From contig NZ_JABTCG010000002.1 in NCBI RefSeq assembly GCF_014610845.1, positions 124,001 to 188,000 of the forward strand: a DNA stretch of 64,000 bases, read 5' to 3'. The translations under genes and the position numbers were made by a program. The stretch is from Maribacter arenosus (GTDB taxonomy: Bacteria > Bacteroidota > Bacteroidia > Flavobacteriales > Flavobacteriaceae). The notes beneath the pieces are model-generated. The model worked only from the letters and a program-made list of their open reading frames with translations. It had not been told where the DNA came from and did no database searches. How positions within the stretch are numbered: the first letter of the stretch is position 1; each line of letters begins with the position of its first letter. Positions 48,422-53,903 of the stretch are shown piece by piece.

Positions 48422-50824
48422 ATGAACACCTATATCAAAACATTTAGCCATATAAGAATTACGGATGTTCCATACGTAGGTGGCAAGAATGCCTCTTTGG
48501 GGGAAATGTACAATCAATTGATTTCAAAAGGGGTACAAGTACCCAATGGATTTGCAACAACGGCTGAAGCTTTCTGGGCCTATTTGGATGAAAATTCACT
48601 TCGGGCTCCGTTAATTAAAATTTTATCCGAATTGGATATTAACCGGTATTCAAATTTGGACACTATTGGGAAAAAGGCCCGAAATCTGATTCTTGGTGGA
48701 GAACTCTCCGAGCAACTTTCCAAAGAAATCATCGAGGCCTATCATGCCTTGTGTGGTGAGGAATCCTGCGCGGTCGCTGTGCGAAGTAGTGCCACAGCCG
48801 AGGACCTTCCCGATGCCAGTTTTGCAGGCCAACATGACACGTTTCTGAACATCGAAGGTAAGGATGCCGTACTTAACGCTATAAAAAAATGTTTTGCTTC
48901 ACTCTATACCAATCGCGCAATCAAATACCGAGATGATCATGGTTTTAAGCATAGCGAAGTAGCTCTTTCCGTTGGCATACAGAAAATGGTTAGAGCCGAC
49001 AAAGGCTGTTCAGGTGTAGGGTTTACTATTGAACCAGAATCAGGGTTCGAGAATGCCATTTTACTTTCTGGGGTATGGGGCCTCGGTGAAAATATCGTAC
49101 AGGGCACCATTAATCCTGATGAGTTTTATGTCTTTAAGCCATCCTTGGAAAAGGGTAACTACCCTATCATCCAAAAGAAAATGGGCGATAAGAAACTCAC
49201 CATGATCTATTCAAAAGCTAAAAAAGGCGGGGCAACAGTAAACATCCATACCCCTAAACCCAGACAGCAGCAATTTATATTGTCTGATCAAGAAGTAATC
49301 GATTTAGCGAAATGGGCCTTGGTAATTGAAAAACATTATGGTAAACCCATGGACATTGAATGGGCCAAAGATGGTAATACCAATGAACTTTACATTATTC
49401 AGGCCCGGCCTGAAACCGTACACCGTGCCAAGGAAAAAAATATCCACATCATCTATAAACTAATGGAAAAAGGAAAGGTGCTGGCTACAGGAAACGCGGT
49501 TGGTTCAAAAATAAAGATAGGAAGCCCGATCATTCTTTATTCCCCAAAAGAGGCAAAAAACCTGACCCATGACCATATTATCGTTACAGATACCATTACC
49601 CCTGACTGGGATCCCCTGCTAAAGCAAGTAGGTGGTATTATAACCAATAAGGGTGGCCGAACCAGCCATGCGGCCATTGTGGCCCGGGAACTCGGGGTTC
49701 CGGCCATTGTAGGGTGCGGAAATGCAACTAAGTGCCTCACTGACAAAGAACTAATAACCCTGTCATGCGCCCAAGGGAAAACAGGATATATCTATGAAGG
49801 CAAACTTTCTTTCAATGAGGAAAAAATCGATTTTTCAAATATAAAGATGCCAAAAACCGAAGCCAAAATGATTTTGGCCGATCCAGAAAACGCATTTCGA
49901 ATGTCGTTCTATCCAAACCATGGTGTTGGGCTGTTACGAATGGAATTCATCATTACGCATTCCGTAAAGATACATCCTATGGCATTGGTCAAGTTCAACG
50001 AACTTAAAAATGCCGGTGTTATACGTAAAATCAATAAAATCACCCATAATTACGCGAACAAAACCGATTATTTTATCGATCAACTTTCACAAGGAATCGC
50101 TACCATTGCGGCCGCCTTTTATCCCAAAGAGGTCATTGTCCGGTTAAGTGATTTCAAGACCAATGAATATGCCAATCTAATCGGTGGTACCGATTTTGAA
50201 CCTCTTGAAGAAAACCCGATGTTGGGTTTCAGGGGAGCCTCGAGATACTATAGCGATCTATATAAAGAAGGATTTGCGCTTGAATGTGCCGCCATTAAGA
50301 AAGTACGGGAACATATGGGTCTCAATAACCTGAAAGTTATGGTTCCTTTCTGTAGAACATTGGAAGAGGGTAAAAAAGTAATGGAAATTATGCGGAAATA
50401 CGGACTTAAACGTGGTGAAAAAGGATTGGAAATATATACCATGGTCGAAATTCCCAGCAATGTGATCCTTGGAAAAGAATTTGCTGAAATTTTCGATGGG
50501 TTCTCCATCGGTTCAAATGATTTGACCCAATTGACCTTGGGAATAGACCGTGATTCCGAAATCATGGGTAATTTATTCGATGAAAACGATCCTGCGGCCA
50601 AGCGTATGATTTCAATGGCTATAGATTCAGCACGGGAAACCAATACCAAAATCGGCCTATGCGGACAAGCACCCAGCGATTTTCCCGAATTTGCCAAGTT
50701 TTTGGTAGAAGAGGGTATCGATAGTATTTCCTTTAATCCTGATGCTCTTTTACAAGGGATTGAAAATATTAATAAAGCTGAAGAAAGTTTTGTAGGTCAA
50801 CATATGGCCTTAAACAACCATTAA
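48422..50824 (+). CDS. ppsA: phosphoenolpyruvate synthase
   Basis: An 800-residue protein of PEP synthase layout: ATP-grasp domain (GGKNASLGEMYNQL, VRSSATAEDLPDASFAGQHD), phosphohistidine domain (GGRTSHAAIVARELG, His416) and C-terminal TIM barrel (GLLRMEFI, VMVPFCRT, GSNDLTQLTLGIDRDS). It makes PEP from pyruvate and ATP, or runs in reverse. It is followed by pfkB with overlapping frames, so glycolytic flux control under low oxygen is likely. Confidence 0.95.
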   Translation: MNTYIKTFSHIRITDVPYVGGKNASLGEMYNQLISKGVQVPNGFATTAEAFWAYLDENSLRAPLIKILSELDINRYSNLDTIGKKARNLILGGELSEQLSKEIIEAYHALCGEESCAVAVRSSATAEDLPDASFAGQHDTFLNIEGKDAVLNAIKKCFASLYTNRAIKYRDDHGFKHSEVALSVGIQKMVRADKGCSGVGFTIEPESGFENAILLSGVWGLGENIVQGTINPDEFYVFKPSLEKGNYPIIQKKMGDKKLTMIYSKAKKGGATVNIHTPKPRQQQFILSDQEVIDLAKWALVIEKHYGKPMDIEWAKDGNTNELYIIQARPETVHRAKEKNIHIIYKLMEKGKVLATGNAVGSKIKIGSPIILYSPKEAKNLTHDHIIVTDTITPDWDPLLKQVGGIITNKGGRTSHAAIVARELGVPAIVGCGNATKCLTDKELITLSCAQGKTGYIYEGKLSFNEEKIDFSNIKMPKTEAKMILADPENAFRMSFYPNHGVGLLRMEFIITHSVKIHPMALVKFNELKNAGVIRKINKITHNYANKTDYFIDQLSQGIATIAAAFYPKEVIVRLSDFKTNEYANLIGGTDFEPLEENPMLGFRGASRYYSDLYKEGFALECAAIKKVREHMGLNNLKVMVPFCRTLEEGKKVMEIMRKYGLKRGEKGLEIYTMVEIPSNVILGKEFAEIFDGFSIGSNDLTQLTLGIDRDSEIMGNLFDENDPAAKRMISMAIDSARETNTKIGLCGQAPSDFPEFAKFLVEEGIDSISFNPDALLQGIENINKAEESFVGQHMALNNH

Positions 50825-50862
50825 TGCTTTTTACAAAGCGTGGACTTCTAAAATTCGCCAAA

Positions 50863-51831
50863 ATGCCAAAAATAGTCACACTCACGATGAATCCCGTAAT
50901 TGATAAGGATACCCATGTAGCAGGTATTGTTCCCAATAAAAAGTTACGCTGTGCCTCGCCCGAATACTTTGCCGGAGGTGGCGGCATCAATGTGTCTCGA
51001 GCCCTAAAAAAGCTAGGTGGTGAATCGCTTTGCGTGTATCTTGCCGGCGGACCCACAGGAGACCACTTGCAACAATTGATTACTAAGGAAAATATAGGAC
51101 AAGAGGTTATTTCCATTGAAGGATGGACACGCGAAAATCTATCGGTGACCGATACGAACACACAGCTTCAATATAGGTTTGGGGTGCCAGGTCCCAACGT
51201 TAAACAGAAGGAATGGAAACGTATTTTAACTTTTTTGGAAGCTAATTTAGAGCAAGATGATTTTTTGGTCGCTAGTGGCAAATTGCCTCCGGGGGTTCCA
51301 ACTGATTTTTATGTACTGGTTTCGAAAATCACGGATAGGAATAAATCAAAATTGGTATTGGATACTTCAGGCGATGCCTTGATCCCGAGTATGAAGGCCA
51401 ATATATATCTCATGAAACCCAACTTAGGGGAGCTAAGTATAATCATGGGGGCAACCTCTATCTCGGCTTTTGATCTGGAACCACTGGCCAAAAAGTTTCT
51501 GGATAAATATAGTTGTGAAATACTTGTGGTATCCTTAGGTGCAAAAGGGGCATTATGGGGCCAAGGGGATGAATTGGAACATATACCTGCCCCAACGGTT
51601 CACCAAAAAAGCGTTATTGGTGCGGGTGATAGTATGGTAGCAGGAATGGTCCATAGCCTTATCACCGGCAAAAGTCTAGGGGAGGCCATAAAGTATGGAG
51701 TAGCCTGTGGTACGGCAGCAACACTGCATCCCGGGACACAACTTTGTAATAAAGAGGATGCAGATCAACTGTATGGGTGGGTCATGAACAACACAGTTAA
51801 AAAAGAGAAAATAAGTGCCAAACTGACCTAG
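50863..51831 (+). CDS. PfkB family hexose/phosphofructokinase
   Basis: The start ATG at 50863 (MPKIVTLTMNPVIDKDTHV) matches the usual PfkB start; an ATG at 50824 overlapping the ppsA stop would add 13 residues. It has 322 residues: FAGGGGINVSRAL, the LMKPNLGELS segment and the catalytic GAGDSMVAGMVH. Most like 6-phosphofructokinase 2 or 1-phosphofructokinase. The stop codon lies inside the TGACCTAGGTCA palindrome that starts the next transcription unit. Confidence 0.9.
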   Translation: MPKIVTLTMNPVIDKDTHVAGIVPNKKLRCASPEYFAGGGGINVSRALKKLGGESLCVYLAGGPTGDHLQQLITKENIGQEVISIEGWTRENLSVTDTNTQLQYRFGVPGPNVKQKEWKRILTFLEANLEQDDFLVASGKLPPGVPTDFYVLVSKITDRNKSKLVLDTSGDALIPSMKANIYLMKPNLGELSIIMGATSISAFDLEPLAKKFLDKYSCEILVVSLGAKGALWGQGDELEHIPAPTVHQKSVIGAGDSMVAGMVHSLITGKSLGEAIKYGVACGTAATLHPGTQLCNKEDADQLYGWVMNNTVKKEKISAKLT

Positions 51832-51866
51832 GTCATTTTGCTACCCAATCTGCCCTTCTATCTTTA
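51824..51866 (+). promoter_or_regulatory. Crp/Fnr-type promoter of the first short transcript
   Basis: Perfect palindrome TGACCTAGGTCA (51824-51835), with the pfkB stop codon inside it, and -7 box TATCTTTA (51859-51866) at the standard distance. A strong terminator follows at 52049, giving a transcript of about 210 bases. Confidence 0.72.
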
Positions 51867-51893
51867 CGATCAAATTATAAATCAATTGGTTCA

Positions 51894-51989
51894 TTGAAAA
51901 GTATTTTGGCCTTCTTCGGGGAATTGAAGGCCGATGAAAAAGAAGAAGCTAGAAAATCTGAAAGCCTTTTGAATCCCGATAAAGTTTAG
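51894..51989 (+). CDS. putative 31-residue micropeptide 1
   Basis: TTG-started frame reading LKSILAFFGELKADEKEE then ARKSESLLNPDKV. It begins about 23 bases after the expected transcript start and has a hydrophobic start followed by a charged helix. The second unit has a similar frame: LKNKFLGFW aligns with LKSILAFFG in the same phase, and the bases around it also align. An ATT codon at 51885 aligns with the ATG of the second frame. Translation is unproven. Confidence 0.4.
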   Translation: MKSILAFFGELKADEKEEARKSESLLNPDKV

Positions 51990-52048
51990 CGATAAATTTT
52001 GGTAAGGGTCAGTGTAAGCGCACATCGGAAAGGAAAGCATCTTCTAGG

Positions 52049-52083
52049 GAACCGGGACATTTCGGTGTTCCGGTTCTTTTTTT
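52049..52083 (+). terminator. intrinsic terminator 1 of the array
   Basis: Stem GAACCGGGACA (52049-52059) with TGTTCCGGTTC (52066-52076), 11 pairs with one G-T, loop TTTCGG, then seven T. Very strong. Confidence 0.88.
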
Positions 52084-52100
52084 ATAAAGGTCCGCCAAAC

Positions 52101-52143
52101 TGACCTAGGTCATTGTGGGCGAAGAGGTAGTTCCTTACCTTGT
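52101..52143 (+). promoter_or_regulatory. Crp/Fnr-type promoter of the second short transcript
   Basis: A second perfect TGACCTAGGTCA (52101-52112), identical to that at 51824, with -7-like TACCTTGT (52136-52143). It begins 18 bases after terminator 1. Confidence 0.68.
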
Positions 52144-52159
52144 GGTCTATAACTTGTAA

Positions 52160-52267
52160 ATGAGTTCTTTGAAAAATAAATTCTTGGGTTTTTGGGTCGT
52201 GGGGATACAAAAATCCAACAAATGGAAGAAGTTTCAGATTGCAGATTATACCCTTTGGACCTTATAG
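52160..52267 (+). CDS. putative 35-residue micropeptide 2
   Basis: ATG-started frame MSSLKNKFLGFWVVGIQKSN then KWKKFQIADYTLWTL. Short hydrophobic start and a basic middle, suggesting membrane contact. It is related to micropeptide 1 at its start. No ribosome site is evident, as often in Bacteroidota. Real translation needs proof. Confidence 0.42.
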   Translation: MSSLKNKFLGFWVVGIQKSNKWKKFQIADYTLWTL

Positions 52268-52331
52268 GTATTTGGGGAAAAATTCATAAAAGGTTCAATA
52301 TAAGAGGAGATTGATCTGAAAAACATCTTCA

Positions 52332-52367
52332 AAGAATCCGGAATATTGGGGTATTTCGGATTCTTTT
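52332..52367 (+). terminator. intrinsic terminator 2 of the array
   Basis: 14-pair stem AAGAATCCGGAATA (52332-52345) with TATTTCGGATTCTT (52352-52365), loop TTGGGG, short T run. Like terminator 1 it carries a CCGG/CCGA core, and the stem contains one G-T pair. Confidence 0.85.
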
Positions 52368-52519
52368 AAAGCAATGGTTATCAAAGTCCCAAGAGACGAT
52401 GATGACCCTAGTAAAGAGACGGATACTGTTGATATGTAGGTCAATTGCTTAGGTCATTTTAGCGATAAAATGATTCAAATGGTTGAAAAACAGAATTGAT
52501 GAATTCCATTTCTTTATGG

Positions 52520-52552
52520 AAAACAGGGACGCTGTAAGCGGACCTGTTTTTT
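52520..52552 (+). terminator. intrinsic terminator 3 of the array
   Basis: Outer stem AAAACAGG (52520-52527) with CCTGTTTT (52543-52550), tandem GA mismatch, inner CGC/GCG stem, loop TGTAA, six T in all. Upstream, a degenerate palindrome TTGC-TTAG-GTCA (52445-52456) may be its promoter. Confidence 0.8.
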
Positions 52553-52555
52553 CTT

Positions 52556-52567
52556 TGACATCAATCA
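52556..52567. promoter_or_regulatory. Crp/Fnr-type palindrome directly after terminator 3
   Basis: TGAC-ATCA-ATCA fits the common pattern, but the standard-register octamer is not a -7 box. A TAGTTTTG box lies at 52627-52634, too far to be paired in the same way. Weak evidence for a promoter. Confidence 0.35.
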
Positions 52568-52708
52568 TTCAGACTTCTAAGCAGTAATGCCTTGGCGGTC
52601 ATATAATGGTATCACAATGTCTTATATAGTTTTGACATCTTGGTAATTGTGCAGCTAGTTCGTCTGAGCTTGGCTCCTACCCAAAATGTAAGCATAGGAT
52701 ACCACTAA

Positions 52709-52746
52709 AAGGACAGGAATAAATCGATATCCCTGTCCTTTTTTTT
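52709..52746 (+). terminator. intrinsic terminator 4 of the array
   Basis: AAGGACAGG (52709-52717) with CCTGTCCTT (52732-52740), loop of 14 bases, eight T. From a -7 box at 52627 the transcript would be about 108 bases, too short for a meaningful ORF. Confidence 0.85.
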
Positions 52747-52792
52747 AACATACAAATGTAAGATACGAGCAACCGTAGGGTGATATGGACTA

Positions 52793-52893
52793 AAAAAGTT
52801 CGCAATGTTTATCACCGGAGTTACCCTTTGAACAGTTTGGCAATTAGGTAACCCAAAGGATAGATTGTACATGTAGCACAGTACGAACTTTTT
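52793..52893 (+). ncRNA. putative structured RNA of the array
   Basis: A 10-base perfect inverted repeat encloses about 80 bases: AAAAAGTTCG (52793-52802) and CGAACTTTTT (52884-52893). Inside, GTTACC (52820-52825) can pair with GGTAAC (52847-52852), or CCTTTG (52825-52830) with CAAAGG (52854-52859). The two inner helices share base 52825. No long ORF is present. Terminator 5 follows at once. Confidence 0.45.
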
Positions 52894-52898
52894 AAAGG

Positions 52899-52926
52899 AA
52901 ACAGGAGACCATGGTCTCCTGTTTTT
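52899..52926 (+). terminator. intrinsic terminator 5 of the array
   Basis: Perfect stem AAACAGGAGAC (52899-52909) with GTCTCCTGTTT (52914-52924), loop CATG, then T run. The spacing of terminators 2 to 5 is 188, 189 and 190 bases. Confidence 0.88.
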
Positions 52927-52952
52927 GTTTATTCATGTAGGCAGATCAGTCC

Positions 52953-52995
52953 TGATTACTATCATTGTGGCCAGATCTTGATTTTGATATCTTCA
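52953..52995 (+). promoter_or_regulatory. Crp/Fnr-type promoter of the 53.1-kb membrane protein
   Basis: TGAT-TACT-ATCA (52953-52964) with -7 box TATCTTCA (52988-52995) at the standard distance. The leader to the start codon at 53108 is about 108 bases. Confidence 0.66.
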
Positions 52996-53107
52996 CTAAT
53001 ATTATAATCAGCATTTCGGTTTTGTTGGGATGACCTAGATAGAATTAGGTCTGGCTTTTACCAAAGAACTGCGTTCCCATTTACAGAAGAACATGCAACA
53101 TAAGAAC

Positions 53108-53817: not shown

Positions 53818-53860
53818 TGACCTTGGTCATTCCACAACCTATATAGGTTCATTATCTTTT
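53818..53860 (+). promoter_or_regulatory. Crp/Fnr-type promoter of the zinc-ribbon gene
   Basis: TGAC-CTTG-GTCA (53818-53829) with -7 box TATCTTTT (53853-53860). The start site near 53866 argues against a start codon at 53871 and for one near 53904. Confidence 0.72.
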
Positions 53861-53903
53861 CTTTGTTAAAATGAATCATATAAAAGTTATTATTAAAACA
53901 ACA

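Follow-up and report, generated by a model that had tools for sequence, protein, structure and literature searches.

Behind the pfkB-type sugar kinase gene of a marine Maribacter genome (family Flavobacteriaceae) lie about 1.26 kb of DNA, between the pfkB stop at 51831 and the next gene, a 234-aa open reading frame (ORF) at 53093 that has no Pfam match. The region is part of a 64,000-nt stretch, here called the window, and all positions refer to that whole stretch. Between the two genes stand five intrinsic terminators, each consisting of a hairpin and a T run and all on the plus strand, which delimit an array of five units of ~150–220 nt, every unit carrying its terminator at the 3' end. The features described below suggest a set of small structured RNAs whose layout, led by boxA and with several terminators, is unusual. 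An earlier reading made from the letters alone (the sequence-only reading) had proposed five terminators and no ordinary ORF in this interval, and both proposals hold. No ORF of at least 60 aa lies inside the array; the longest one wholly inside has 55 aa and is on the minus strand, and 16 ORFs of at least 25 aa overlap the region. A small-protein reading of the array is disfavoured because of its covarying helices and irregular indels, the conservation of the ORFs not having been checked individually.

A fold-based scan of 51832-53092 identified exactly five terminators, a number reached in none of 200 dinucleotide shuffles of the region (mean 0.09, maximum 1). A simpler terminator scan returned eight matches in 4 kb, two of the five array terminators among them, against 3.6 (s.d. 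2.0) in shuffles. The looser rule that we used for a comparison of 36 loci counts six terminators in the window, not five.

The fold of unit 1 is real. It comprises a 5' hairpin, two helices (one closing, one inner), a further hairpin whose loop is mostly of the GNRA type, and the terminator. Across the 11 training rows, pairing holds in 94.5% of the cells, and two-sided change is seen at 15 of 43 pairs; four of five measures exceeded all 500 shuffles, and the fifth, further pair types, was reached by 62 of them. A covariance model of the unit 1 core, R1, was used to find further members. In an alignment of 25 R1 matches, fitted to the structure and including two of the training rows, two-sided change extends to 39 of the 43 base pairs, and the covariation score is 0.591 compared with 0.272 for shuffles and 0.097–0.152 for slid partners. 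Analysis of unit 3 by RNAalifold, using sequences from 13 relatives, found two-sided change in 21 of 51 pairs.

Scoring the remaining units with R1 indicates that several of them share descent. Units 1 and 2 are clear paralogues on this sequence evidence. Unit 3 scores 33.8 bits in the window and up to 52.4 bits in locus L037, unit 5 scores 27.0 bits and up to 38.1 bits in L034, and unit 4 scores 26.9 bits in the window. Since antisense R1 matches, attributable solely to the terminator palindrome, reach 30.4 bits, R1 scores of ~30 are weak proof. Unit 3 is likely a paralogue of units 1 and 2, and unit 5 likely another, on a plan common to units 1–3. Unit 4 appears to be a different module, very conserved and without clear R1 kinship: its 5' hairpin hardly varies across several genera, and 29 of 195 loci, which are partly redundant, contain an exact 19-nt pattern taken from it. 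The unit 4 motif was not found in viral contigs. In L206 (with boxA) and L136 a unit of this type comes first behind an FNR-type site, and modules therefore seem to be shuffled between arrays. A short motif, WAGHGGYHAT, occurs in unit types 1, 3 and 4, with 29 copies on the plus strand of 34 arrays and three on the opposite strand (shuffled mean 1.1); this count is inflated by homology, and the window's own array contains no copy. It can recur in different unit types within a single array, for example with three copies in each of L031, L034 and L044.

We then consider how far the array extends among relatives. At the DNA level the array is matched in 9 of the genus's 12 genomes, the window's own included, and in none of 28 other genomes compared; in the eight relatives the array lies behind pfkB. 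A set of 74 loci places it also in Eudoraea, in further Maribacter and in uncultured Flavobacteriaceae, and arrays recur behind ppsA-pfkB in relatives, a point that the sequence-only reading had proposed to check. Promoters and terminators, whose absence from relatives that reading had named beforehand as telling against it, are both conserved. In the nine-genome alignment, units 1 and 3 are present in all nine, units 2 and 4 in five and unit 5 in two; unit 5 is found in other relatives beyond that alignment. R1 itself matches 10 of the 12 genus genomes and 29 of 397 family genomes (own included in both counts), the latter representing 25 of 237 genera, with three family matches that look false. 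At the order level 9 of 395 genomes match, and three of these lie outside the family; their matches are weak (62, 72 and 88 nt) and probably reflect terminators alone. A search with R1 of 58 other pfkB loci, 690734 bases in all, yielded nothing at E ≤ 1. Ten Arenibacter loci and Saonia have no array directly behind the pfkB examined and no R1 match there. Absence beside one pfkB does not equal genome-wide absence, because in genome G133 an array lies behind another ppsA-pfkB pair (L152). Genome G313 holds three separate R1 loci (L145, L146 and L147), two of which, going by the labels applied, follow neither pfkB nor ppsA.

Leaving aside the window's own genome and G006, 27 family genomes match R1; 18 were examined at length (20 loci) and 9 in brief. 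The 20 loci include the same-genus L154 as well as L148, which is the Eudoraea locus L033. The region checked for promoters lies outside the R1 model, which starts ~50 nt past the boxA-like element. TGA-N6-TCA is the form of FNR and CRP sites. In 19 of the 20 loci TGAYN4RTCA occurs at most 220 nt upstream of R1, compared with 8.5% of random positions in the same loci, and in all 19 TAnnTT follows 14–34 nt after the FNR-type site, at one offset in 17 loci and another in 2. An operator of this type, upstream at activating distance and at fixed spacing to a −7 element, is FnrS-like in the form of the site; binding by Fnr is predicted. Among the nine loci examined in brief, five are preceded by an FNR-type site (L123, L133, L135, L136 and L139), L137 looks array-like and showed no such site in the part inspected, and L138, L140 and L141 look false. 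Outside the array promoters, loci L143-L162 are densely set with FNR-type sites: a further 261 stand there on the two strands together, of which 115 have TAnnTT after them and 8 have the boxA-like GTTCWTT no more than 98 nt away. The L162 array accounts for at least two of the latter.

Perfect TGACCNNGGTCA sites number three in the window and 11 in its own genome. The sequence-only reading had placed two perfect promoter palindromes just before terminators; the palindromes are indeed there and perfect, and their position has to be revised, as they sit ~210–220 nt ahead of the terminator stems, heading units 1 and 2. It had also listed weaker palindromes at 52445 and 52556. The first is one arm of the predicted unit 3 hairpin; the second (TGACATCAATCA) is an unconserved site, absent from several relatives and, as judged by eye, lacking a −7 element at the customary distance. 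No FNR-type site with a −7 element at the 23-nt spacing was recognised for units 3, 4 and 5. A motif scan before these three units likewise found no promoter, the scan being crude and also missing the −7-like element of unit 2.

Each of the two promoters is followed by an element that we name boxA-like because similar sequences occur in rRNA leaders of relatives; upstream of the 16S gene, five such leaders in three relatives have AAGTTCATTGACATATTG, AAGTTCTTTAACATATTGG or a less strict form. Upstream of R1 in the 20 family-level loci, GTTCWTTGA is present in 10 (control 0.2%) and GTTCWTT in 15 (control 6.7%). Within the genus, the composite of ACTGAYNNNNRTCA and then GTTCWTTGA within 40–65 nt occurs nine times, in 6 of 12 genomes, and all nine occurrences are at arrays; this strict pattern overlooks arrays with a variant boxA, such as GTTCATTTGA. 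The family composite has 15 occurrences in 12 of 397 genomes, and the reversed pattern has 2. Thirteen of the 15 are R1 loci, and the other two, L203 and L206, by eye lead hairpin-plus-T arrays; R1 gives no good sense match to either, and L206 begins with the unit 4 type. The strong covariation, the paralogous units, the boxA-like element after the promoters and the family-wide spread had all been overlooked by the sequence-only reading.

The coordinates of the features are collected in Table 1. Neighbouring genes encode, by Pfam, PpsA, PfkB and a universal stress protein, and no tRNA or tmRNA was found in the window. A third perfect FNR-type palindrome, TGACCTTGGTCA, lies at 53818-53829, before a zinc-ribbon gene at 53871 (Pfam Zn_ribbon_2).

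Table 1. Features of the RNA array and the preceding gene, in window coordinates.
Feature	Sequence	Position	Strand	Remarks
pfkB-type sugar kinase gene		50824..51831	+	Pfam PfkB, 168 bits; NCBIfam hexose kinase 1-PFK, above cut-off; outside the RNA array
Palindrome 1	TGACCTAGGTCA	51824..51835	.	FNR/CRP-type; kept in relatives; overlaps pfkB end
−7 element, unit 1	TATCTTTA	51859..51866	+	23 nt past the end of palindrome 1
boxA-like element, unit 1	GGTTCATTGAAAA	51888..51900	+	Resembles rRNA leaders of relatives
Unit 1 RNA		51870..52086 (start inferred); core from 51939	+	R1 51939-52082, 138 bits; covariation
Terminator stem T1		52046-52079	+	Hairpin and T run
Palindrome 2	TGACCTAGGTCA	52101..52112	.	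FNR/CRP-type; heads unit 2
−7-like element, unit 2	TACCTTGT	52136..52143	+	Same 23-nt spacing; identified by eye
boxA-like element, unit 2	AGTTCTTTGAAAA	52163..52175	+	Follows the −7-like element
Unit 2 RNA, paralogue of unit 1		52148..52371 (start inferred)	+	R1 52222-52368, 88.9 bits
Terminator stem T2		52331-52366	+	Hairpin and T run
Unit 3 RNA, no promoter recognised		52380..52556	+	RNAalifold; R1 33.8 bits
Terminator stem T3		52519-52551	+	Hairpin and T run
Unit 4 RNA, very conserved 5' hairpin		52571..52746	+	11-sequence alignment
Terminator stem T4		52707-52742	+	Hairpin and T run
Unit 5 RNA		52785..52930	+	6-sequence alignment
Terminator stem T5		52897-52926	+	Hairpin and T run

The reading that we favour, and hold to be on balance probable, is that of an array of structured non-coding RNAs that is activated from FNR-type sites, is transcribed onwards by boxA-aided partial read-through and acts in trans when carbon metabolism and stress defence are switched at low oxygen. 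An FNR-like regulator, probably one that senses low oxygen, would activate both promoters; low-oxygen control is suggested by the form of the site together with the neighbouring genes. The boxA-like element would load NusB/S10, shielding the untranslated RNA from Rho and perhaps carrying polymerase beyond the first terminators. Units 3–5 would then probably arise by partial read-through, because their conserved parts start, by eye, ~15–30 nt after the previous U run, and because the second unit of the Eudoraea locus L033 likewise has no FNR-type promoter. Each unit would become a stable RNA, and the RNAs would serve the low-oxygen switch in trans, the best remaining reading of their role; in our view they would more probably do so through a protein bound by the fold than through a simple seed. 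A more specific form of this reading is a metered polycistronic ladder, in which an antitermination-modified polymerase starting from the FNR-type promoter and boxA drops off at successive terminators, such that a single oxygen signal would give a stepped series of one to five RNAs having the same fold and one partner, protein or RNA, in common. We put it forward tentatively, as less likely than not, and know of no described counterpart for ladder-type small-RNA production or for the fold family.

Several observations weigh against the favoured reading. T1 and T2 look strong (−20.4 and −18.0 kcal/mol), which speaks against easy read-through. The alignment of 25 matches leans towards structure, having been fitted to it. 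Alignments of unit 4 (two-sided change in 5 of 25 pairs, 11 sequences) and unit 5 (5 of 47 pairs, six sequences) show little covariation. The boxA 12-mer GTTCTTTGAAAA alone is unenriched in the own genome (four occurrences, the reversed form five), and the 16S gene of that genome was not found, leaving its own rRNA leader unavailable for comparison. Six Crp/Fnr-type proteins are encoded in the genome and none is singled out as the regulator; for one of them, ~10 kb before the window, the best NCBIfam name is Fnr, with a score below the model cut-off. Finally, the complement of WAGHGGYHAT was seen once at start codons of neighbouring genes, where 0.76 is expected; given this lack of seed enrichment, fold-based protein binding seems no less likely than pairing through a seed.

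The absence of recognised promoters at units 3–5 also bears on two other explanations. A row of five separate small-RNA genes that all have promoters, some of an unrecognised kind, seems to us improbable. Units 1 and 2 do possess their own promoters, a unit 4 type can stand directly behind an FNR site and boxA (L206) or an FNR site (L136), and the promoter scan was crude enough to overlook the −7 of unit 2. In many relatives, however, units 3–5 start just past the preceding U run with neither an FNR site nor a consistent −7, and the promoterless second unit of L033 points the same way. What stands of the series of independently ended small RNAs envisaged by the sequence-only reading is the succession of terminated units and the FNR-type site; independent transcription is not supported, the FNR-type promoter being confined to units 1 and 2. 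We also consider it improbable that the region makes a single folded RNA ~1 kb long, or a precursor processed by RNases, whose hairpin-U elements would be structural parts or stabilisers of 3' ends rather than terminators. Such an RNA would account for the missing promoters of units 3–5 and for the free variation in unit number, and boxA-like elements suit long untranslated transcripts, as in rRNA; yet each of the five shows the hairpin-plus-U-run form of an intrinsic terminator, and single-unit loci exist (for example L035, L149 and L151).

What follows the array argues against a role in cis. A cascade of leaders or attenuators for the next gene would fit the window, where terminators and structure precede a co-directional gene, as they do in 24 of the 36 loci compared, some of which are near-identical. 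In the other 12 of 36 the ORF that comes next is read from the opposite strand, and its type differs between loci, so that no constant co-directional gene is associated with the arrays; a cis role is unlikely for this reason, and we regard the cascade as very improbable. That the region is nothing special, no more than a prolonged 3' end of the pfkB operon in which terminators have accumulated, as suggested by the position directly behind pfkB and the overlap of the first palindrome with the gene end, can hardly be reconciled with the covariation, the promoters of the array's own and the arrays found behind other genes, such as ppsA.

Some known systems resemble parts of the array. FnrS of Escherichia coli is a small RNA behind an FNR-type site that takes part in the low-oxygen switch; the array has in common with it the FNR-type site and an expected low-oxygen role, and differs in comprising several structured units and a boxA-like element, with Fnr dependence and base pairing of its RNAs being putative. 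LhrC1-5 of Listeria are tandem small-RNA copies, each with a promoter. They resemble the array as several RNAs in a row with a terminator each, kinship within the array being clear for units 1 and 2 and likely for units 3 and 5, whereas the array has a conserved promoter at units 1 and 2 only. Untranslated transcripts led by boxA are those of rRNA operons and CRISPR arrays; here too a boxA-like element comes shortly after the promoter, but the transcript of the array would be split into short units by intrinsic terminators, and its dependence on NusB/S10 is putative.

The sequence-only reading knew of no described family with this layout in Bacteroidota, and our searches agree. Rfam 15 gave no match across the window at gathering score. 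At E ≤ 5 there were 10 weak matches to the array; the best, MicX on the minus strand (E 0.0005), scores 28.5 bits against a required 75. The literature searched, which comprised open-licence papers, yielded no description of an array like this. The nearest study describes non-coding RNAs of Flavobacterium psychrophilum, including Rfp18, and mentions the Flavo-1 motif; the word 'fnr' does not appear in its main text (PMC9723704). Like the array, the Flavo-1 and Rfp RNAs are non-coding RNAs of Flavobacteriaceae; Flavo-1 is not among the Rfam matches to the array, weak ones included.

The arrays look like a new, family-wide group of structured RNAs that matches no catalogued RNA family. This would add a group of structured RNAs tied to an oxygen-type regulon in Flavobacteriaceae, where few regulatory RNAs have been characterised, and it links a boxA-like element to short terminated RNAs. 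The role of boxA outside rRNA and CRISPR transcripts, and the use of RNA in a low-oxygen switch of carbon metabolism, are thereby opened to testing.

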